Origin: a bacterium
GTDB lineage: Bacteria; UBP6; UBA1177
Length of the DNA stretch: 64,000 nt
Direction: 5' to 3'
NCBI GenBank assembly: GCA_017645765.1
Contig: JAGCNV010000026.1
Coordinates: 1-64,000 of the forward strand
Positions 4,149 through 44,560 of the stretch are shown here, piece after piece. The position numbers and the translations under genes were made by a program. Below the pieces are notes generated by a model. It had not been told where the DNA came from. It was given only the letters and a program-made list of their open reading frames with translations, and did not search any database. Position 1 is the stretch's first letter; the number at the start of each line of letters is the position of its first letter.

Positions 4149-5354
4149 ATGGGTTTTTTCGATACTCTCGGTGTCAAGTGCGTAAACGAGCTCGCCATCA
4201 GGGAAAAGAGGGTTTTTCTCAGAACCGATTTTAATTTTCCCGTTGATGAAAACGGAAATATCGCCGATCTTGAAAGGATAAACAAGACGATACCTACGAT
4301 AAAGCACATTCTGGAACACAATGCGCGCCTTATAATCGCGTCGCATTTCGGAAGACCCGAGAGCGAAAAGGATGTTCAGTACACTCTTGAACCTTTTGCG
4401 GCAAAACTCGCAGAAATCCTCGAACAGGATATCTACTTCTTTGAGGATTGCTGCGGCATGGGCGCAATGCAGATGGTAAGAGACCTCAAACCAGGTCAGA
4501 TACTCGTTCTCGAAAACCTCAGATTCAACAGCGAGGAAAAGAAGGGGTCTACCGCTTTTGCGAGAGAGCTTGCGAAGATGTGCGATGTATATATCAATGA
4601 CGCTTTCGGCGTTTCGCACAGAAAGGATACCTCAATTGCCGTTCTTCCGCGTTTCGTCGATACGAAAGGAGCAAGCTTTACAGTCAAGCAGGAAGTCGAT
4701 GAACTGTCGAAATTCCTCGGTTTGGAACACGGAAGCGGTCTTGGCATCATGCTCGGCGGATCGAATACAGCCGATAAAATGGGGCTGATACGTCCGATGC
4801 TCGACATGGCCGACAAAATCATACTCGGAGGTCCGCTTGCCTACATTTTCATGGCGGCACAGGGGATCAGTGTCGGTGCTACACAGGTCGACGAGGAAAA
4901 AATCCCGCTTGCAAAAGAGATCCTGAAAAGCGCGAAAGTCCGCAAAGTCGAAATCGTTCTTCCTGTTGACCACGTTGTTGCCGAAACTGTAAATTCGACT
5001 GAACCCGTTATATGCAGCACGGAATCTTTCCCTGAAGGAATGTCTGCTTTCGATATCGGTCCTGAAACGGTTGAGCTTTTTGCGCAAAAAATTGCGGAAT
5101 GCCAGCATCTTTTCTGGAGCGGTCCGATGGGAGTCTACGAAAAACCGCAGTTTTCGGTCGGAAGTCTCAGACTTGCACAGAAGATCACGCCTCTCAGCAT
5201 ACACAAAGTTGCAGGCGGCGGAGATACCGAAGAAATGCTCAGAAAAACGGAATTCGCGAAAAATTTCGACTATGTTTTTACATGCGGAACAGCCGCGCTG
5301 GAATTTCTTAAAAATGGAGGGATGATTCCAGGTTTGGAAGCTCTCAAAAATTAA
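4149..5354 (+). CDS. pgk: Phosphoglycerate kinase
   Basis: Transfers phosphate from 1,3-bisphosphoglycerate to ADP. The 401-aa protein has the substrate-binding RTDFNFPVDENG near residue 25, the YINDAFGVSHR signature, the GGSNTADKM hinge region and the C-terminal nucleotide loop VAGGGDT. It starts at an ATG 15 nt after gap, preceded by ACGGAGG. Length and motifs are standard. Confidence 0.98.
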   Translation: MGFFDTLGVKCVNELAIREKRVFLRTDFNFPVDENGNIADLERINKTIPTIKHILEHNARLIIASHFGRPESEKDVQYTLEPFAAKLAEILEQDIYFFEDCCGMGAMQMVRDLKPGQILVLENLRFNSEEKKGSTAFARELAKMCDVYINDAFGVSHRKDTSIAVLPRFVDTKGASFTVKQEVDELSKFLGLEHGSGLGIMLGGSNTADKMGLIRPMLDMADKIILGGPLAYIFMAAQGISVGATQVDEEKIPLAKEILKSAKVRKVEIVLPVDHVVAETVNSTEPVICSTESFPEGMSAFDIGPETVELFAQKIAECQHLFWSGPMGVYEKPQFSVGSLRLAQKITPLSIHKVAGGGDTEEMLRKTEFAKNFDYVFTCGTAALEFLKNGGMIPGLEALKN

Positions 5355-5366
5355 AAAAAGGGGAAT

Positions 5367-5687
5367 ATGGCAAAACTTACGATGGCAACATCGGCTAATT
5401 TTAAGCCGAGAGAAAAGAAACTGACGCAGGTCGAAATGGAGAAAATCACCGAAAGCCGCAAGGTGAATCTCGGTTATTCGCAGGAATGGCCGCGCCAGAA
5501 ACTCAGGATTTCCGACCTCTATCCGGACGAAAAATTCCTGAAAGAAAATCTGATGCACGAATATAAGTACTTTATTCTGATGGTTCTCCCGGTCATCGTC
5601 ACATCTGCTGTAGTCCTTATTCACAGAAACAATCTATACAACGAATTCCTTGCTTATTTGGAAGAGTTTTTTTCGCAACTCTGGTGA
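5367..5687 (+). CDS. Small protein with one membrane segment, unknown
   Basis: Encodes 106 aa. Residues 1-65 are charged and hydrophilic; one strongly hydrophobic helix (about residues 69-86, FILMVLPVIVTSAVVLI) follows, then a short tail rich in Asn, Leu and Phe. It starts 12 nt after pgk behind AAAAGGGG and is probably the last gene of the glycolytic operon. I recognise no family. It looks like a bitopic membrane protein with its N-terminus in the cytoplasm. Confidence 0.65.
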   Translation: MAKLTMATSANFKPREKKLTQVEMEKITESRKVNLGYSQEWPRQKLRISDLYPDEKFLKENLMHEYKYFILMVLPVIVTSAVVLIHRNNLYNEFLAYLEEFFSQLW

Positions 5688-5786
5688 TTCTGCGGCTTTT
5701 TCAGATCGCCGAAAATCTTGACTTGATTATTTCAAAATATACTCTCACGCGAAAATTTGTTGTTTTATAAATTTAAGGAGTTTGAA

Positions 5787-7475
5787 ATGACTAAAATCAT
5801 CGAATGTGTTCCCAATTTTTCTGAAGGAAGAGATATGTCCGTAATCGACAAGATTACAGCTGAAATCAAGAAGGTGAGCGGTGTCAGACTGCTTGATGTC
5901 GATCCCGGATACGACACGAACAGAACTGTCGTTACCTTTGTCGGTGAGCCGGAACCGGTCAAACAGGCAGCTTTCGCAGCAGTCAAAAAGAGCCACGAAC
6001 TCATTGACATGCGCCACCACAAAGGCGCTCATCCGCGCTTCGGAGCGTGTGACGTCTGCCCCGTTATTCCGGTAAGCGGCGTAACGATGGACGAATGCGT
6101 TGAAATCGCGCACGATCTCGGCAAAAGACTTGGCGAAGAGCTCGACTATCCGGTTTATTTCTACGAATATGCGGCTACAAGCCCGGAAAGAAGAAACCTT
6201 GCTACTGTCCGTTCCGGCGAATACGAAGGTCTTGAAGCAAAACTCAAAGATCCTAAATGGAAACCCGATTTCGGCCCGGCGGAATTCCGTCCGACAAAAG
6301 GTGCAACCGCTGTTTCGGCGCGTGATTTCCTCATTGCCTACAACATCAACCTCAATACGACGAACGCGAAGAAGGCGAACGCAATTGCTTTGAGACTGCG
6401 CGAGCAGGGCTATCCGGAAAAAGATGCCGACGGCAACCCGAAACTTGACGCAAACGGCAAAAAAATCATGCATCCCGGAATGTTCAAAAACTGCAAAGCC
6501 ATCGGCTGGTATGTCGATGATTTCAAAAGGGCTCAGATTTCGATAAACCTCACGAATTACCACGTAACCAACATGTTCCACGTTTTTGACGCCGCTTCGA
6601 AACTTGCAGAAGAGAAGGGACTCCGTGTTACAGGCAGCGAGATCGTCGGCGTTCTTCCGAAAGAAGCTCTTATCGAAGCCGGCATCCACTACCTTGAAAA
6701 ACAGGGGACATGCGCTGGTCAGAGCGAAGCAGAGCTCATCAAAATCGCGGAACAGTCTTTAGGACTCAGCGATGTAGTCAAATTCAAACCCGAAGAAAAG
6801 GTCATCGAATACATGGTGAAGGAGACAAAAGGACTTTCAGATATCACGGTAACAGAGTTCTCCGACCTTCTGGCAAGTGACGCTCCGGCTCCTGGCGGCG
6901 GTTCTGTCGCTGCTCTCTGCGGCTCATTGGCTGCGGCGCTCGGAAGCATGGTCGCAAACCTCACTTTCAACAAAAAAGGCTACAAAGAGCATAACGAAAA
7001 GATGAACTGCGTTGCAAAAGATATGCAGGTAAGACGAGCTGAACTTCTTCATCTCATCGACGAAGATACAAACGCTTTCAACATCATGATGGCGGCTATG
7101 AAAGCTCAGAACGCAGCTAAAAAAGCTGGAAATCCCGATGAGATCGCAGCTGCGGACAAAAATATGGACGAAGCCAACAAATACGCGATCTCAGTCCCGC
7201 TTCACGTTCTTGAGAAAACCTACGAGCTTCTTCCGAACCTTAAAGTTGTCGGCGAATTCGGCAACATCAACGCCGCAAGCGACGCCGGCGTAGGCGCTCT
7301 GCTCGTTCAGTCTGGTGTAAAAGCTGCTGCTCTTAATGTTAAGATCAACCTCAAGAATTTCGCGAAAGACGATCCTTTCTACGCTGAAACCTTCAACGCG
7401 ATGAACAAAGTTCTTGCTGTTGTCGATAAGGAAGCCGAAGAGATTCTTGCAATCGTCGAAAAGAAAATAAGCTAA
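5787..7475 (+). CDS. ftcD: Bifunctional glutamate formimidoyltransferase / formimidoyl-THF cyclodeaminase
   Basis: A 562-aa fusion. Residues 1 to about 325 form the formiminotransferase (ECVPNFSEGRD, RMRHHKGAHPRFGACDVCP-like segment), which moves the formimino group of formiminoglutamate to tetrahydrofolate. About 340 to the end form the cyclodeaminase (FSDLLASDAPAPGGGSVAAL), which gives 5,10-methenyl-THF and ammonia. Together they link histidine breakdown to one-carbon metabolism. The frame extends 10 codons upstream, but the ATG at 5787 has AAGGAG 6 nt before it. No other hut gene is in the window. The fused form is as in animals and some anaerobes. Confidence 0.95.
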   Translation: MTKIIECVPNFSEGRDMSVIDKITAEIKKVSGVRLLDVDPGYDTNRTVVTFVGEPEPVKQAAFAAVKKSHELIDMRHHKGAHPRFGACDVCPVIPVSGVTMDECVEIAHDLGKRLGEELDYPVYFYEYAATSPERRNLATVRSGEYEGLEAKLKDPKWKPDFGPAEFRPTKGATAVSARDFLIAYNINLNTTNAKKANAIALRLREQGYPEKDADGNPKLDANGKKIMHPGMFKNCKAIGWYVDDFKRAQISINLTNYHVTNMFHVFDAASKLAEEKGLRVTGSEIVGVLPKEALIEAGIHYLEKQGTCAGQSEAELIKIAEQSLGLSDVVKFKPEEKVIEYMVKETKGLSDITVTEFSDLLASDAPAPGGGSVAALCGSLAAALGSMVANLTFNKKGYKEHNEKMNCVAKDMQVRRAELLHLIDEDTNAFNIMMAAMKAQNAAKKAGNPDEIAAADKNMDEANKYAISVPLHVLEKTYELLPNLKVVGEFGNINAASDAGVGALLVQSGVKAAALNVKINLKNFAKDDPFYAETFNAMNKVLAVVDKEAEEILAIVEKKIS

Positions 7476-38539: not shown

Positions 38540-38682
38540 ACTGCGTTTTTCGGGGTTTGTTATGACAAAAATCAGTAACAACAATACATTTTGCCGCGCA
38601 TCACTAGACACCTTAAACACCTTAGATTCCCTAAATTCACTAAGTTTTGCAGCGGTGTGCACCACAAAACCGGAGGTTTAAA

Positions 38683-39594
38683 ATGAAGAAAATTTTTGCA
38701 GTTTTTGCGCTTTTCACACTGTTTTTCGCAGTTTCCTGCGGAAGTTCAGATCTTACAGAAGAAATAAGAGAAGCATGGCAGGAAACGCATGATGATACAC
38801 AGGATATATTGGACAGTTCTGACACTGCGGAAGATTCCGACGACGCAGGTGACACGGCGGGAGAGCCCGGCGACACATCAGACTCCGCAGAAGAGCACAA
38901 CGACTCAGGTGACACAGTGGAAGAGCCGGATGACACGTCAGACACAGCAGAAGAAACGGATGACAGCGATTCAACGCCGGATCAGCCCAACGATGCAGAT
39001 TCTGCCGACGATTCCGACACTTCGGATTCCGACGACGCTGACACTTCGGATCCGACTGACGAGGCCGATCCGCAGTCGGACGACGATGCAGATACCGACA
39101 GCGGTGATCCGGATGAACCCTGCACAACAATTGACGCCAAGCTGTGGTGGTCACCAAAAACAACGGATACAATGGATTGGCTGAGTGCGCTTGATTACTG
39201 TGAAAAAAAGTTGAACGATTCGAACAAATGCGGGTATTCAGACTGGCATCTGCCTATAATCGATGAACTGAAGATGCTCCTCAAGTGGAGAAGGGATTCC
39301 CAATGCAAGGTTTCTGAAACGGACGACCATTTGTCTTTTAATGATTACTGGACATGCTCAAGCTGCTGCCATGATTGTACGCTTGGAGGCGGAGGAGAGT
39401 GCAACTACTCTTCTTATTATTACGACGGAAGATACAGCAAATTAGGCGACTCCGGCTCGCTCTGGTCTTCCTCTGTTCCAACCGAATATATTCATTCTGC
39501 GTGGTTTGTAAATTTCAATGCCGCTCAGGTGTACAACAAAAGTAAGTCGAACACGACTGAAGTCTATGTTCGTTGTGTGCGGGGAGCTCAGTAA
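38683..39594 (+). CDS. Lipoprotein with Asp/Ser/Thr-rich linker and DUF1566 domain
   Basis: 303 aa. A lipoprotein signal (FTLFFAVSC, lipid Cys about 19) leads to about 120 residues made almost only of Asp, Ser, Thr, Glu and Pro, then a C-terminal DUF1566 domain (KLWWSPKTTDTMDW, DWHLPIIDELKML, LWSSSVP, YVRCVRGAQ). Such linkers extend surface domains from the cell. The domain is a paralogue of the variable domain of the DGR target and shares its last 15 coding bases before RG (39565-39579). The ATG at 38683 follows CGGAGG. Codons in the linker are repetitive. Confidence 0.88.
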   Translation: MKKIFAVFALFTLFFAVSCGSSDLTEEIREAWQETHDDTQDILDSSDTAEDSDDAGDTAGEPGDTSDSAEEHNDSGDTVEEPDDTSDTAEETDDSDSTPDQPNDADSADDSDTSDSDDADTSDPTDEADPQSDDDADTDSGDPDEPCTTIDAKLWWSPKTTDTMDWLSALDYCEKKLNDSNKCGYSDWHLPIIDELKMLLKWRRDSQCKVSETDDHLSFNDYWTCSSCCHDCTLGGGGECNYSSYYYDGRYSKLGDSGSLWSSSVPTEYIHSAWFVNFNAAQVYNKSKSNTTEVYVRCVRGAQ

Positions 39595-39707: not shown

Positions 39708-40553
39708 TTATTTATTTTCCACAATCATAAGATCTTTTCTTAAATCAAGCGAAAGTATCGTTCCGAGTTGTTTTTTAGCTGTATCTCTGAGTTTCAAAAG
39801 ACGCTCTTTCTGCGGAATGTTCTGTTCAATCAGAATAGCGTTGTAGCTTTCAAGGTTCGCAAGAACCAAAAGATGAGGAATGTCCGCATAATCCCTGATG
39901 TTTCCGCTTTTATCCGGATTTTCTGAACGCCATTCTTTTGCAGTTTTTCCGAAAAGAGCGACATTCAGCAAGTCCGCTTCGTCGGCGTAAACAAAATTTT
40001 TCTGTTCCGGCGTAAGATCAGGCAGAATCAGATTTTCTTTAACCGCGCTCATTTGGATTTTGTAATTCAGTTTTGAAATTTCGCGGTTCAGATTCCAGTT
40101 CAACGAAAGACGGCTGTTTTCATCCGACTTGAGACGACGGTAATCCTTGACGATATAAAGTTTGAATTCCGGCGAAATCCATGATGCGAACTCCAATGCA
40201 ATGTCAGAATGGGCAAAAATGCCGCCGCCGTAACGACCGGATTTTGTAATTATGCCGATTCCGTGCAAAATCTCGTTCCAATTTTTTATTGAAAAAGTGT
40301 AGGCGTTGCTTCCTGCATCCTTTTTAAACGTATCGAATTCGTGACGTTTAAAATCAGGATTGTGAAGACTTTCCCAAAGTCCGAGAAATTCCACAATGTC
40401 ACGGCTTCTAAGCCAGCTGTGGATTGTAATTCGCGGATCGGAACTTCTGAAACGGGCAATATCCGTCAGAGAAATATACTCTTCCTTAAAATCCGTTGTG
40501 TAAATACCAATTTCAATGCCTTTCGCGTGAATTGTTTCTGTAACTGTTTTCAT
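39708..40553 (-). CDS. KilA-N domain protein
   Basis: 281 aa. The N-terminal part has the KilA-N pattern (YISLTDIARFRSSDPRITIH, WLRSRDIVEFLGLWE, GRYGGGIFAHSDIALEFASW), a DNA-binding fold common in phages and mobile elements. The C-terminal part (ILPDLTPEQKNFVYADEADL and onward) is the associated DUF found in chromosomal copies. It is a likely regulator or remnant of a mobile element next to the DGR. The region upstream is AT-rich. Confidence 0.88.
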   Translation of the reverse strand: MKTVTETIHAKGIEIGIYTTDFKEEYISLTDIARFRSSDPRITIHSWLRSRDIVEFLGLWESLHNPDFKRHEFDTFKKDAGSNAYTFSIKNWNEILHGIGIITKSGRYGGGIFAHSDIALEFASWISPEFKLYIVKDYRRLKSDENSRLSLNWNLNREISKLNYKIQMSAVKENLILPDLTPEQKNFVYADEADLLNVALFGKTAKEWRSENPDKSGNIRDYADIPHLLVLANLESYNAILIEQNIPQKERLLKLRDTAKKQLGTILSLDLRKDLMIVENK

Positions 40554-40871
40554 GTTGTTACCTCAAAATATTATTTTGTGTTTTCATAAAATTATTACAA
40601 AGAATCTTAACATTTATAAAAGAACTAGAATTGTTTATTTAAAGTATAACAATATAGAATTTAAGTCAACAAAAATTTTATATTTTAATAAAAATATGGA
40701 CGGAAAAGATATTGAACAGGGACTAACTTTTTCAATGTCGAAGATTGCAGTTGCAAGAAAAAGTGTAAAATAGCGAGTAGGGGAATGCTGTGGAAAAGGT
40801 TCTTGCCTTTTTGGGATTTTTTTCTAAAATACCGCGTTTTTTTTTGAATGATTCGTTTTTTTGAGGTCGAA
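40554..40871. other. AT-rich 318-bp gap between KilA-N gene and DGR target
   Basis: No gene is seen. On the minus strand TTGACT (40669-40664) and TATACT (40648-40643), 15 bp apart, may drive the KilA-N gene. On the plus strand the DGR target promoter lies at 40803-40830. The rest is strongly AT-rich with no clear repeats. Confidence 0.5.
40803..40830 (+). promoter_or_regulatory. Promoter of the DGR target gene
   Basis: TTGCCT (40803-40808), 16-bp spacer, TAAAAT (40825-40830), then ACCGCG and a run of T. The start codon is about 40 nt further on. It matches the promoter of the neighbouring DUF1566 gene in spacing and discriminator. Confidence 0.6.
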
Positions 40872-42284
40872 ATGAAAAAAATTTTCATTGTTTTAGTACT
40901 TTTTTTGCTTTCGTTCGGGTTGTTTGCGGAAAAACCGAGAATCGCCATTCTCGATTTTGATGACAACAGCGGCACTCTCAGCAAAAAACTCAGCAAAGCG
41001 CAGATGCAGGCGGAAAGAAAAGTTATGAGCATCTATTTCAGAAAGCAGGCTAAAGGCAAATTCATTATTCTTTCCGACAGCGAGCAGGAAGCGATAATCA
41101 AAAAGATGAAGAAAGAATCGACTCGTCTCGACAGAAACCAGGTTTATAAAATTGCGACAGGAATGGGTGTTTCTGCTGATAAGATTCTTTACACGACGAT
41201 AGTTGCATTCGGCAGAAAATACACCGTCACATCGGAGCTGATAGACCTTGAGCGTGAAATTTCCGACGAGCAAGGCATGGTCGGATATGCCGATTTCGAC
41301 GGAACACAGGAATCTCTGCGCGAGGCGATGGAGAAAATTGTTAACCAGCTTATGGGAAAGGACGAAGAATCCGCCCAGTATGCGGCGATTGAAGCTAAAA
41401 AAAGCAAAGATCAGGAAGCGTGCGAAATTGCCAGATACACAACAGGTCCGAGTGGCTGGCTGACATATCTCGAGATGTTTCCGAAAGGCCAGTGTGCGGC
41501 TGAAGCGAAAAGAGTACTTGACAAATCTCTCTGCGAACATGCTCAAAACGAAAACACCGTTGAAATCTGGCAGAAATATCTGAAACTCCATCCCGGCGGT
41601 GACTGTGAATTCGAGGCAAGAAGTGCCATCCGCACTCTGCAGCATCAGAACCGTCCCGGAAATGCAGAAAGACCTGCTTACAATCAGCCTTCCGGCGGCT
41701 CAACACGAGACGCAAAAGCGTGCAAATACGCTCAAAACGAAAATTCACTTGAAGCATGGCAGGATTACCTTGATTCGTTCCCTGACGGAGAATGCTCTTT
41801 TGAAGCAAAGGGCAACATCAGAAAACTTCAGAAAGAAAGAGAAAAGCAGGAACATATTGCAAGATATCTTAAAGGGCGCAAAATCGGCAACCTCATCTGG
41901 TCAGACCGTTCGTCAAACAAAATGAACTGGAGCAGTGCGAAACAATATTGTGAAGATCTTACTGAGGGTGGTTTTGACGACTGGAGACTGCCTACAATAA
42001 GCGAACTTAAAACAACAATACAGAACTGTCAGTCAGGCGGTTCCTCGTGCAGAGTGTCGGACAGCTGCCTTTCTTCAGACTGCTGGTCAAAAAGTTGTTA
42101 TTGTGATGGCCGAAGCAACAACGGCGGTTATTACAGCAAGCTTGGTGATGACGACAAAGTTTGGCTTTGGTCGTCTTCTACTCGGTCTGGTTATCCAGAT
42201 CACGCATGTTACGTGTATTTCCTCAAAGGTTATGTGATCAGCATCAATAAGTCCTACAATAACTATGTTCGTTGTGTGAGGTAG
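40872..42284 (+). CDS. DGR target (variable) protein with C-terminal DUF1566 domain
   Basis: 470 aa. Signal peptide (KKIFIVLVLFLLSFGLFA, cut before EK). Residues about 20-165 look like the CsgG/FlgO-like domain common in secreted proteins (RIAILDFDDNSGTL, LIDLEREISDEQ). Three repeats follow (about 183-320) of the form W..YL..FP.G.C..EA with paired Cys. A DUF1566 domain (about 338-470: NLIWSDRSSNKMNW, DDWRLPTISELK, YYSKLGDDDKVWLWSS) ends in YVRCVR. Residues 433-470 are the variable repeat, in the C-type-lectin-like fold region used for ligand binding in known DGR proteins. The ATG at 40872 follows GAGGTCG. It probably acts outside the cytoplasmic membrane; the ligand is unknown. Confidence 0.92.
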   Translation: MKKIFIVLVLFLLSFGLFAEKPRIAILDFDDNSGTLSKKLSKAQMQAERKVMSIYFRKQAKGKFIILSDSEQEAIIKKMKKESTRLDRNQVYKIATGMGVSADKILYTTIVAFGRKYTVTSELIDLEREISDEQGMVGYADFDGTQESLREAMEKIVNQLMGKDEESAQYAAIEAKKSKDQEACEIARYTTGPSGWLTYLEMFPKGQCAAEAKRVLDKSLCEHAQNENTVEIWQKYLKLHPGGDCEFEARSAIRTLQHQNRPGNAERPAYNQPSGGSTRDAKACKYAQNENSLEAWQDYLDSFPDGECSFEAKGNIRKLQKEREKQEHIARYLKGRKIGNLIWSDRSSNKMNWSSAKQYCEDLTEGGFDDWRLPTISELKTTIQNCQSGGSSCRVSDSCLSSDCWSKSCYCDGRSNNGGYYSKLGDDDKVWLWSSSTRSGYPDHACYVYFLKGYVISINKSYNNYVRCVR

Positions 42285-42305
42285 GAGATGGTCGTTGAGA
42301 CCGCA
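42166..42305 (+). repeat. DGR variable repeat (VR)
   Basis: Aligned base for base with the template repeat 880 bp downstream, without gaps. From 42168 to the target stop codon there are 16 differences: 15 fall at template adenines (to G, T or C) and one is G to T at 42209. The last 45 bp before 42301 are identical, including the stop codon TAG and a copy of the RT start region. A further A-to-C difference lies at 42301. Changed codons are mainly AAY codons in the template. Confidence 0.97.
42256..42300 (+). other. IMH-like invariant 3' end of the VR
   Basis: 45 bp identical to 43136-43180 although it contains 12 or more adenines. This is where initiation of mutagenic homing is expected in DGRs. 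It includes YVRCVR codons, the stop, GGTAGGAG and ATGGTCGTTGAGA. Confidence 0.85.
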
Positions 42306-42310
42306 TTTTT

Positions 42311-42323
42311 GCGCGGAACGCGC
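42311..42323 (+). other. Hairpin just downstream of the VR
   Basis: GCGCG (42311-42315), loop GAA, CGCGC (42319-42323), beginning 5 bp after VR/TR homology ends. In the Bordetella phage DGR a cruciform close to the VR is needed for target recognition; this is the best counterpart here. Confidence 0.6.
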
Positions 42324-42329
42324 TGGTTT

Positions 42330-42357
42330 GCGTCCGCCGGTTGCGAGAGGCGGGCGC
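42330..42357 (+). other. Second GC-rich hairpin downstream of the VR
   Basis: GCGTCCGCC (42330-42338) pairs with GGCGGGCGC (42349-42357) with one G-T pair and a 10-nt loop. It adds to the cruciform-prone region between target and avd. Confidence 0.6.
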
Positions 42358-42364
42358 AGGTTTT

Positions 42365-42401
42365 CCGATTTCGTCGCTGTCGGCGAAATCGGCGTTTTTT
42401 T
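42365..42401 (+). terminator. Rho-independent terminator after the DGR target
   Basis: A 12-bp stem (CCGATTTCGTCG at 42365-42376 and CGGCGAAATCGG at 42381-42392, one T-G pair), loop CTGT, then CG and seven T. It would end target transcription and separate it from avd-TR-RT. It might also add to VR recognition. Confidence 0.75.
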
Positions 42402-42405
42402 CGTA

Positions 42406-42427
42406 GAGGCGTTTCCTGAAACGTCTC
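42406..42427. repeat. GAGRCG palindrome, copy 1
   Basis: GAGGCGTTTC, CT, GAAACGTCTC: a 10-bp inverted repeat with one G-T pair. The same sequence family recurs at 44257-44278 (in the RT gene), 47346-47368 and, in shorter form, 42454-42471. Confidence 0.7.
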
Positions 42428-42453
42428 ACAGATGAAAAACTAGGTTCTTTGAA

Positions 42454-42471
42454 AGAGACGTTAATGTCTCT
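42454..42471. repeat. GAGACG palindrome, short copy
   Basis: AGAGAC (42454-42459) and GTCTCT (42466-42471) around GTTAAT, 20 bp before avd. It may also influence avd expression. Confidence 0.45.
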
Positions 42472-42490
42472 ATGGGTTTAGGGTTTAATC

Positions 42491-42877
42491 TTGTCGGATT
42501 TCAAACAAACAGATTTATACAAAGCAACATTTGATCTCACGGTTTACATTGAAGAATGTTTTCGCAATTTCAAAAGATCCGACAAATACACGATAGGAGG
42601 TGAACTGAGAACATTATTCAACGATTTTCTATTCAAAGTTTCGACATTCAACGACCGCGCGGAGAGCGAAAAAGCCGCTTTCTGCGACGAGCTCTTGAAG
42701 GATCTCGACAAGTGCCAGATAAAAATGACACTGTGTCAGGAATTATCGGTGTTTAAAAGCTACAAATCGTGGTATCATGCAGCAAAAATGCTGTTTGATA
42801 TATACCGGCAGTGTGAAAAGCTCAAAAATCATTTTGAGGGTTCCGGGCAGAATCACGGAGGTAAAAAACTTCTGTGA
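42491..42877 (+). CDS. avd: DGR accessory variability determinant (Avd-like)
   Basis: 128 aa, all helical and basic/polar, fitting the four-helix-bundle Avd family: TDLYKATFDLTVYIEECFRN at the start, then FKRSDKYTIGGELR (compare the family's PRSERFTLG), and a last helix with YKSWYHAAKMLFDIYRQC. In known DGRs a pentameric Avd binds the RT and template RNA and is required for mutagenic reverse transcription. The only upstream start is TTG at 42491 with a weak GGGTTTAGGG leader. It lies between VR and TR, as in the Bordetella phage DGR. Confidence 0.88.
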   Translation: MSDFKQTDLYKATFDLTVYIEECFRNFKRSDKYTIGGELRTLFNDFLFKVSTFNDRAESEKAAFCDELLKDLDKCQIKMTLCQELSVFKSYKSWYHAAKMLFDIYRQCEKLKNHFEGSGQNHGGKKLL

Positions 42878-43045
42878 GCGTCCCAAGTCTGCGGTTAGAT
42901 CAGAGAGCCAGTGAAGCATATCCGGCAGTCAATTCAAACAATGAACACAGTCACGACTTTTCACACGGTTCTGGCTATTCCGGAAAGACTGCCGCAGAAA
43001 TCCGTACCCTGGCAGGATCGGATTTTCTGATAATAATCTCTGAAT
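42878..43045 (+). ncRNA. Leader/spacer of the DGR template RNA
   Basis: 168 bp between avd and the template repeat without convincing protein similarity. An open frame starts at a GTG overlapping the avd stop (GTGA at 42874) and runs through the TR to 43164, in frame with the target's reading frame. It is most likely the 5' part of the template-carrying RNA rather than a gene. RNA ends are not determinable here. Confidence 0.5.
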
Positions 43046-43185
43046 TTTGGTCGTCTTCTACTCAATCTGATAATCCAGATAACGCATGGAACGTGAATTT
43101 CAACAAAGGTAATGTGAACAACAACAATAAGTCAAACAATAACTATGTTCGTTGTGTGAGGTAGGAGATGGTCGTTGAGAACGCA
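43046..43185 (+). repeat. DGR template repeat (TR)
   Basis: Homologous to the VR at a constant offset of 880 bp. It is adenine-rich and holds 13 AAC/AAT codons in the target frame (..FNKGNVNNNNKSNNNYVRC); 10 of them are altered in the VR. AAY codons allow wide amino-acid change without stops, a hallmark of DGR templates. Its 3' part overlaps the first codons of the RT gene (ATG at 43168). Confidence 0.97.
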
Positions 43186-44496
43186 GACATTTTTACCCCC
43201 AAAAACATTTTCAAGGCTTACATCGACTGCCGCAGACGCAAGCGCAGCACCGTGAACGCGCAGAAGTTCGAGCGAAAGCTCTGCACAAACATCGTATCGC
43301 TCACAAAATCGCTGCAGAGCGGAAACTACGAGCCCGGCAAATCGATCTGCTTCGTCGTGAGAAATCCCAAGCCGCGCGAAGTTTTTGCAGCCGATTTCCG
43401 TGACAGGATCGTCCATCATCTTTTAGTCAGATTTCTGGAACAGCACTGGGAAAAGGTTTTCATCCACGATTCCTACGCATGCCGCAAAAACAAAGGGACT
43501 CTCGCCGCCGTGGAAAGGCTTCATCACAACATGCTGAGTATTTCTAAAAACGGAAAAAAGCGGGCATATTTCATGCAGCTTGACGTGAAGAACTTTTTCA
43601 TGTCTATTGACCGCGAAATTCTGTGGAAATTCCTCGAAAAAGGGCTCAGAAAACAGCTCGGGATCAGAAAAAATGCTGAAAATTGTGTTCAGATGACGAT
43701 TTTTGACCTAGATTTTTCAGAAAAAGAGCAGAATTTTAAGAAAATCTCAAAAGTTCTGCACACCCTGCTTTTTCACGAGCCGACAAAAGATTACATAAAC
43801 AAATCGACAAAGCGCGAATGGTCGTGGGTTCCGCCCGAAAAAAGCCTTTTCAACGCAGAAAAGGGCAAAGGACTGCCAATCGGAAACCTGACATCGCAGT
43901 TTTTCGCAAACGTCTATCTCAATGCGCTCGACCAGTTCATCAAACATGTCCTCAAAATCAAATATTATGTCCGCTATGTCGATGATTTTGTGATCATGCA
44001 CGAAGACAAAGAACAGTTGAGGACGTGGCTCACCGCAATCAAAGAATTTTTGAAGGAAAAACTCGGTTTAAGGCTCAAAAACGAGGTCAAAGTTGCATCT
44101 CTCGGCAACGGAATCAATTTTCTCGGTTATGTCCAGCACATTTTCTACCGTTTGGTGAGAAGAAGAGTCGTTGACAATTTCAGGAATAAATTGAGGTGGT
44201 GGGCGGTTGGTGAGCCAGTCGAACCATCGCTCATTTCGACTTCGCTCAATGACCGGGAGACGTTTCAGGAAACGTCTCTACAAGAATCTAATAAAATCAA
44301 TGTGTTATCAAAATTGAGATCCGTTCTAACCTCGTATCTGGCATATTCATCAAAGGCAAATTCATTCCGAATCGTGCAGAAAACATTGAGTCCGCACAAA
44401 TGGATAGACAAAATTTTCAAAATATCGGGAACAAAAGCGGCGTTTTCAGAGGAAATCACACAGGAACAGGAAAGAATTGTTTTCGGGTTTTATTAG
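43168..44496 (+). CDS. DGR reverse transcriptase
   Basis: 442 aa. Motifs in order: FAADFRDRIVHHLL (about 73-86), FIHDSYACRKNKGT (98-111), QLDVKNFFMSID (catalytic Asp139), GLPIGNLTSQFFANVYLNALD (236-255), YYVRYVDDFVIM (YVDD 270-273) and FLGY. The (I/V/L)GxxxSQ form of motif 4 is typical of DGR enzymes, where group II intron RTs have QGxxxSP. There is no maturase/endonuclease domain. The product copies the TR RNA with errors at adenines for transfer to the VR. A palindrome inserted about residues 348-375 adds GEPVEPSLISTSLNDRETFQ and more. The start has GGTAGGAG and overlaps the TR. Confidence 0.95.
   Translation: MVVENADIFTPKNIFKAYIDCRRRKRSTVNAQKFERKLCTNIVSLTKSLQSGNYEPGKSICFVVRNPKPREVFAADFRDRIVHHLLVRFLEQHWEKVFIHDSYACRKNKGTLAAVERLHHNMLSISKNGKKRAYFMQLDVKNFFMSIDREILWKFLEKGLRKQLGIRKNAENCVQMTIFDLDFSEKEQNFKKISKVLHTLLFHEPTKDYINKSTKREWSWVPPEKSLFNAEKGKGLPIGNLTSQFFANVYLNALDQFIKHVLKIKYYVRYVDDFVIMHEDKEQLRTWLTAIKEFLKEKLGLRLKNEVKVASLGNGINFLGYVQHIFYRLVRRRVVDNFRNKLRWWAVGEPVEPSLISTSLNDRETFQETSLQESNKINVLSKLRSVLTSYLAYSSKANSFRIVQKTLSPHKWIDKIFKISGTKAAFSEEITQEQERIVFGFY
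44204..44290 (+). repeat. Dispersed repeat inserted in frame in the RT gene
   Basis: A stretch with GAACCATCGCTCATTTCGAC and TTCGCTCAATGACCG followed by the palindrome GAGACGTTTC-AG-GAAACGTCTC (44257-44278) and TACAA. It adds about 28 residues to the RT after the palm/thumb region without breaking the frame. The palindrome belongs to the family at 42406 and 47346. Confidence 0.7.
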
Positions 44497-44502
44497 AATC
44501 TC

Positions 44503-44560
44503 CGTTGTGTGAGGTAGGGCTTCGACTCCAACGACCGCTCAGGAACCGGTTCAGCAACCT
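44503..44560 (+). repeat. Partial IMH copy and dispersed repeat after the RT gene
   Basis: CGTTGTGTGAGGTAGG (44503-44518) equals 16 bp of the VR/TR 3' end (43150-43165), 7 bp after the RT stop. It is followed by GCTTCGACTCCAACGACCGC and CAGGAACCGGTTCAGCAACC, which looks like a dispersed repeat. It may be the remains of a second target site. Confidence 0.6.

Follow-up and report, generated by a model that had tools for sequence, protein, structure and literature searches.

A chromosomal diversity-generating retroelement with an Lcl_C (DUF1566) target, apparently recently active, in an uncultured bacterial lineage

A target gene, an accessory gene, a pair of repeats and a reverse transcriptase (RT) gene lie in a row in the stretch of 64,000 nucleotides analysed here (the window, contig C34 of the 2.6 Mb genome G000), which raises the question of whether they form a complete diversity-generating retroelement (DGR), whether it is still active, and which genes it rewrites. 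DGRs are a known bacterial system in which a target, an Avd protein, a template repeat (TR) and an RT act together in adenine-directed change. We hold it to be almost certain that this locus is a complete and canonical chromosomal DGR, with the order target-Avd-TR-RT, acting by mutagenic homing at an IMH-like end (Table 1), and its activity is apparently recent. We infer present activity, IMH priming, a surface location and ligand binding from the evidence given below. The relatives of the source bacterium are ruminant-gut MAGs (reindeer, goat, yak gut or rumen).

Table 1. Features of the DGR locus, in window coordinates
Feature	Position	Strand	Basis or remark
Target gene, 470 aa, ending in an Lcl_C (DUF1566) domain	40872..42284	+	ORF, Pfam
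Lcl_C domain of target, predicted C-type-lectin-like fold	41889..42281	+	Pfam, structure model
Variable repeat (VR)	42166-42305	+	Direct-repeat search and base-by-base VR/TR comparison
IMH-like 3' end of VR, ACCGCA then TTTT	42300..42305	+	TR counterpart AACGCA
Inverted repeats 3' of VR, candidate hairpin/cruciform	42311..42358	+	Fold z -4.7
Further hairpin then T run, terminator-like	42365..42392	+	Hairpin search; T run read from sequence
Avd accessory protein, 128 aa	42491..42877	+	PHROG profile, fold match
Template repeat (TR)	43046-43185	+	3' end overlaps first 18 nt of RT gene
IMH*-like 3' end of TR, AACGCA	43180..43185	+	VR/TR comparison
DGR reverse transcriptase, 442 aa	43168..44496	+	PF00078, E 4.6e-20
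RT-gene insert of dispersed short repeats	44205..44290	+	Closing palindrome recurs inverted at 42398-42427
Third copy of VR/TR 3' end, CGTTGTGTGAGGTAG	44503..44517	+	6 nt beyond RT stop

The original prediction had paired VR and TR without gaps at an offset of 880 and had placed 15 of the 16 differences in the coding part at TR adenines; on realignment over 140 nt its coordinates and all of its listed positions hold, and an independent direct-repeat search recovers the same pair (88% identity, spacing 880). Over the whole 140 nt there are 17 differences, one at a G and 16 at TR adenines (A->T 8, A->G 4, A->C 4), that is, 16 of the 48 adenines are changed versus 1 of the 92 other bases (Fisher p = 7e-8). 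The sole coding difference at a base other than A, G->T at 43089, turns Trp446 of the VR into Cys, while the seventeenth difference, A->C at 43181, lies directly beyond the stop codon and is read by us as the IMH/IMH* mark. The changed bases of the VR run from 42184 to 42255, from where the repeat continues through the stop codon to its IMH-like end; 14 codons are altered between 42183 and 42255, mostly from AAC or AAT to Tyr, His, Ile, Ser or Leu, and the 21 codons that hold an A would allow about 2e21 protein variants by computation. When 11 VR/TR pairs drawn from the window, the DGR on contig C35 of the same genome and related genomes were pooled, 183 of 486 TR adenines were changed versus 3 of 799 other bases (p about 1e-83), so that TR adenines account for 183 of the 186 differences.

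VRs of different genomes had been expected to vary at the adenine-matched positions, and they do so in the compared assemblies, which are of different species. The target and its orthologue in G007 are 91.5% identical across 470 aa. Outside the VR, 92 of 1294 bases differ (7%), 62 of them at codon position 3, versus 25 of 119 (21%) inside it; of these 25, 24 fall on TR adenines and 23 on the first or second base of a codon. Likewise, in the C35-type pair of G009 C11 and G014 C46, which are 98.8% identical over 1747 nt, all 26 VR differences are at TR adenines. The non-A change matched to 43089 is missing from the G007 orthologue. In one further pair, the targets of G005 and G008, the sequences outside the VR are 98.6% identical and the VRs differ at a single base; no TR matching this target type was found in either genome, an absence that can reflect an assembly gap where assemblies are fragmented. 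Such low VR divergence is what frozen leftover targets would be expected to show.

In all VR/TR pairs, the shared sequence passes the stop codon and a short spacer, after which the VR ends in [A/G]CCGC-TTTT and the TR in AACGC. Every pair has a putative IMH at the VR 3' end that differs from the IMH* at the TR 3' end, as is typical of DGRs, and the CCGC/AACGC difference probably plays this IMH/IMH* role. Used as a search pattern, the VR form of the mark has 31 sites in 12 of the 15 genus genomes, while its reversed pattern, the control, has zero sites in these genomes. The TR form has seven sites, six of them beside an RT; the seventh (L177, in G007) was rejected as a TR, because an ordinary Lcl_C gene ends there. 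Many of the 31 marked VR ends are remote from every RT or come from genomes in which no RT was found. The spacer between the stop codon and CCGC varies by DGR type. VR ends were scored if they align without indels and have a spacer type with a known TR; for nearly all of these the best-fitting TR is the one of the same spacer type, and non-A mismatches to it usually number 0 or 1. Downstream of the mark in the window, GCGCG-GAA-CGCGC (42311-42323) is followed by a G+C-rich 10-bp stem (42329-42358), and stable inverted repeats of this kind occur after most VRs and are mostly weak or absent after TRs. These inverted repeats resemble the hairpin/cruciform that BPP-1 needs; in phage DGRs it has a 7-10 bp stem and a 4-nt GRNA loop (PMC3240598), and the loops found here are not of that kind.

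The three genes agree with the original prediction of a DGR made up of a target with a DUF1566 domain, an Avd-like gene and an RT. The target ORF has an ATG at 40872, a further in-frame ATG at 40848 and its stop at 42282-42284, and its N-terminus reads as signal-peptide-like. Residues 340-470, at the C-terminus, match Pfam PF07603 Lcl_C (E 1.9e-18), the family earlier named DUF1566. A structure model was made of this domain only, as an alignment of full-length multidomain targets misplaced rows; the model (pLDDT 72, moderate confidence) has as its top PDB match 8q4e, the C-terminal domain of Legionella Lcl, and then C-type lectin domains. The VR is thereby the 3' part of a gene whose product has a predicted C-type-lectin-like fold, as in other DGRs. 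Because of this predicted fold and the signal-peptide-like N-terminus, the diversified part may reasonably be taken for a surface or periplasmic ligand-binding domain. The Avd ORF starts with TTG, a start codon common to the relatives, and its product matches PHROG 3206 'Avd protein of DGR' (E 1.7e-10); the predicted structure is a four-helix bundle (pLDDT 84) that resembles BPP-1 Avd (TM 0.83-0.87 to 4dwl and 8ub7_C), and the 128-aa protein stays below the cut-off of the NCBIfam Avd equivalog (16 vs 80 bits). Accessory proteins of the Avd type accompany many DGRs, not all.

The RT has the motifs LPIGNLTSQ (IGNLTSQ at 43879-43899) and YVDD (43975-43986), and the nearest of the solved structures is that of the BPP-1 DGR RT (8ub7 bRT, E 3.9e-43). 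The nearest phage RTs adjoin annotated Avd genes. A tree of 20 RTs, which covered DGR, group II intron and CRISPR-associated RTs, puts the RT of the window within the DGR clade (support 100/100) and apart from the group II intron RTs, a placement that rules out its being one of the latter. It stays below the NCBIfam cut-offs for group II introns and retrons, and an Rfam scan returned tRNAs only, with no intron RNA or retron RNA family. With these parts, RNA of the TR would be reverse transcribed by an RT/Avd complex with mis-insertion opposite adenines. Synthesis of cDNA would start near the IMH-like ACCGCA just beyond the target stop codon, and the cDNA would then replace the VR, so that about 21 codons for the tip of the secreted Lcl_C (DUF1566) protein would be randomised, while the TR would be spared as a target because it carries AACGCA.

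Four observations run counter to this account: the Avd score below the NCBIfam cut-off, the lack of a GRNA loop, the loss of a conserved Trp and the repeat insert in the RT gene. The insert in particular bears on whether the DGR diversified the VR in the past and is now silent here, for example through a crippled RT. Relatives in which the core is being deleted down to RT 3' remnants, and the one non-A VR change that the G007 orthologue lacks, would also agree with silence. We nevertheless consider it unlikely, since the RT, Avd, TR and IMH are all intact and the coding VR has accumulated only one non-A difference, and since the insert, which is in frame, appears to be tolerated: G009 keeps the same insert in frame, and the RTs of C35 and G014 hold other repeats at the same linker position. 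Dispersed palindromic repeats of this sort (L058 5989-6162, L054 4884 onward) lie in frame at this one RT linker and differ between RTs; similar repeats also lie between the TR and the RT start in relatives.

The DGR of the window is one of several in the genus. Contig C35 of the same genome carries another complete DGR (VR 3990, TR 4826, RT 4948-6336), and further DGRs are found in the relatives G002, G004, G005, G009, G012, G014 (two) and G023 (one TR, two VRs). The third copy of the VR/TR 3' end, beyond the RT gene, is probably the vestige of a second, downstream target gene, and an intact second target does lie downstream of the RT in G014 and G023 (L056 4702-5124 and L140 3395-3811). Two VR-like ends with an IMH, C67 16876-16994 and C49 28739-28857, are remote from any RT of the window's genome. 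A third VR-like stretch remote from an RT, C67 20121-20239 (L059), has 21 of its 24 differences at adenines of TR2 and is without the CCGC mark; it looks like a VR made from a TR2-like template, perhaps in a target that has lost the capacity to be rewritten. Marked VRs also occur in G006 (99% complete) and G008 (98%), where no RT was found, possibly owing to gaps in these fragmented assemblies. In G007 and on contig C18 of G014 the core is gone, and an RT 3' remnant with short palindromic repeats at the junction directly follows the VR. Such remnants show cores undergoing deletion, and the junctions in these two genomes suggest that the palindromic repeats may promote it. It is possible, and we propose it tentatively, that in this genus the DGR core (Avd-TR-RT) is gained and lost while a pool of IMH-tagged Lcl_C targets persists. 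Each core would serve its own scattered targets, because the type-specific spacer from stop codon to CCGC matches the cognate TR; targets would freeze upon loss of the core, and a new core of the same type could re-activate them.

Many DGRs are phage-borne, and a phage-type regulator with a KilA-N domain (39708-40553, minus strand) adjoins the target upstream, so the cassette could be part of an integrated phage and not of the host gene set. We regard this as very improbable, since a scan of viral contigs gave no relative, phage RT matches stay at <60% identity, and no phage structural genes are among the listed ORFs between 38 and 48 kb; around the locus lie clpC and genes for an aminotransferase, a protease and a glycosyltransferase-like protein, and the order Avd-TR-RT-aminotransferase-protease is preserved in G009.

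The chromosomal DGR shares its genome with a very large set of Lcl_C domains: there are about 140 Lcl_C matches in G000 and >100 in most genus genomes, which makes these secreted or lipoprotein tips an unusually large family. In G000 the analysis covered the stretches that hold an Lcl_C gene or a VR mark. When TR1 and TR2 were slid over all stretches with Lcl_C genes, mismatches in distant paralogues were also enriched at TR-adenine positions, because these positions encode variable sites; a match that exceeded about 15 non-A mismatches was therefore not taken for a VR. The upstream Lcl_C gene at 38647-39594, whose end resembles the TR, was rejected as a paralogue (32/78 non-A mismatches against the TR, no IMH mark); it has an Asp/Thr-rich linker, and a 112-nt stretch 5' of it recurs 5' of the target at 71%. 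Although the enrichment in distant paralogues and the abundance of Lcl_C matches might suggest a duplicated gene end whose divergence came from positive selection or gene conversion and involved no mutagenic reverse transcription, we give that next to no credence, since it would also hit third positions and other bases, of which the pooled pairs have so few changed, and since the gene sequence flanking the VR diverges normally and the RT, the Avd gene and the IMH are all there in order.

The mutagenic DGR described here adds a clean, apparently recently active element from an uncultured lineage. Its mark (stop codon, type-specific spacer, then CCGC-TTTT in the VR or AACGC in the TR) locates target ends without a nearby RT, whereas large DGR surveys acknowledge that remote targets escape them (PMC8144416). 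Provided that the mark holds, the remote and orphan targets of the genus become directly countable, and it can be traced on the species tree where DGRs were gained, lost or frozen.

Earlier papers already describe DGRs, targets with DUF1566, and targets that are remote or left over; what may be new here is an IMH mark simple enough for counting remote targets, together with the density of Lcl_C domains. The locus resembles the DGR of Bordetella phage BPP-1 (mtd-avd-TR-brt) in gene order, Avd fold, RT family, adenine-specific VR change, IMH/IMH* difference and the inverted repeat after the VR (PMC3240598), but it is chromosomal, has an Lcl_C target domain, RT insertions and hairpin loops other than GRNA, and shares its genome with a second DGR and dispersed VRs. 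In human microbiomes and in genomes, DUF1566 ranks with the most frequent target domains of DGRs, sometimes with several VRs (PMC4159848, PMC6642488); the DGRs described here differ from those in their host lineage and in the >100 Lcl_C matches per genome. A parallel to the scattered targets is found in Treponema denticola, whose DGRs likewise have remote targets, several TR types, IMH-like 3' ends, and leftover targets in core-less strains where RT and TR are missing (PMC4891356). Unlike in that species, which belongs to another lineage, a fixed CCGC/AACGC mark here locates VR ends genus-wide, and RT remnants reveal how cores were lost.
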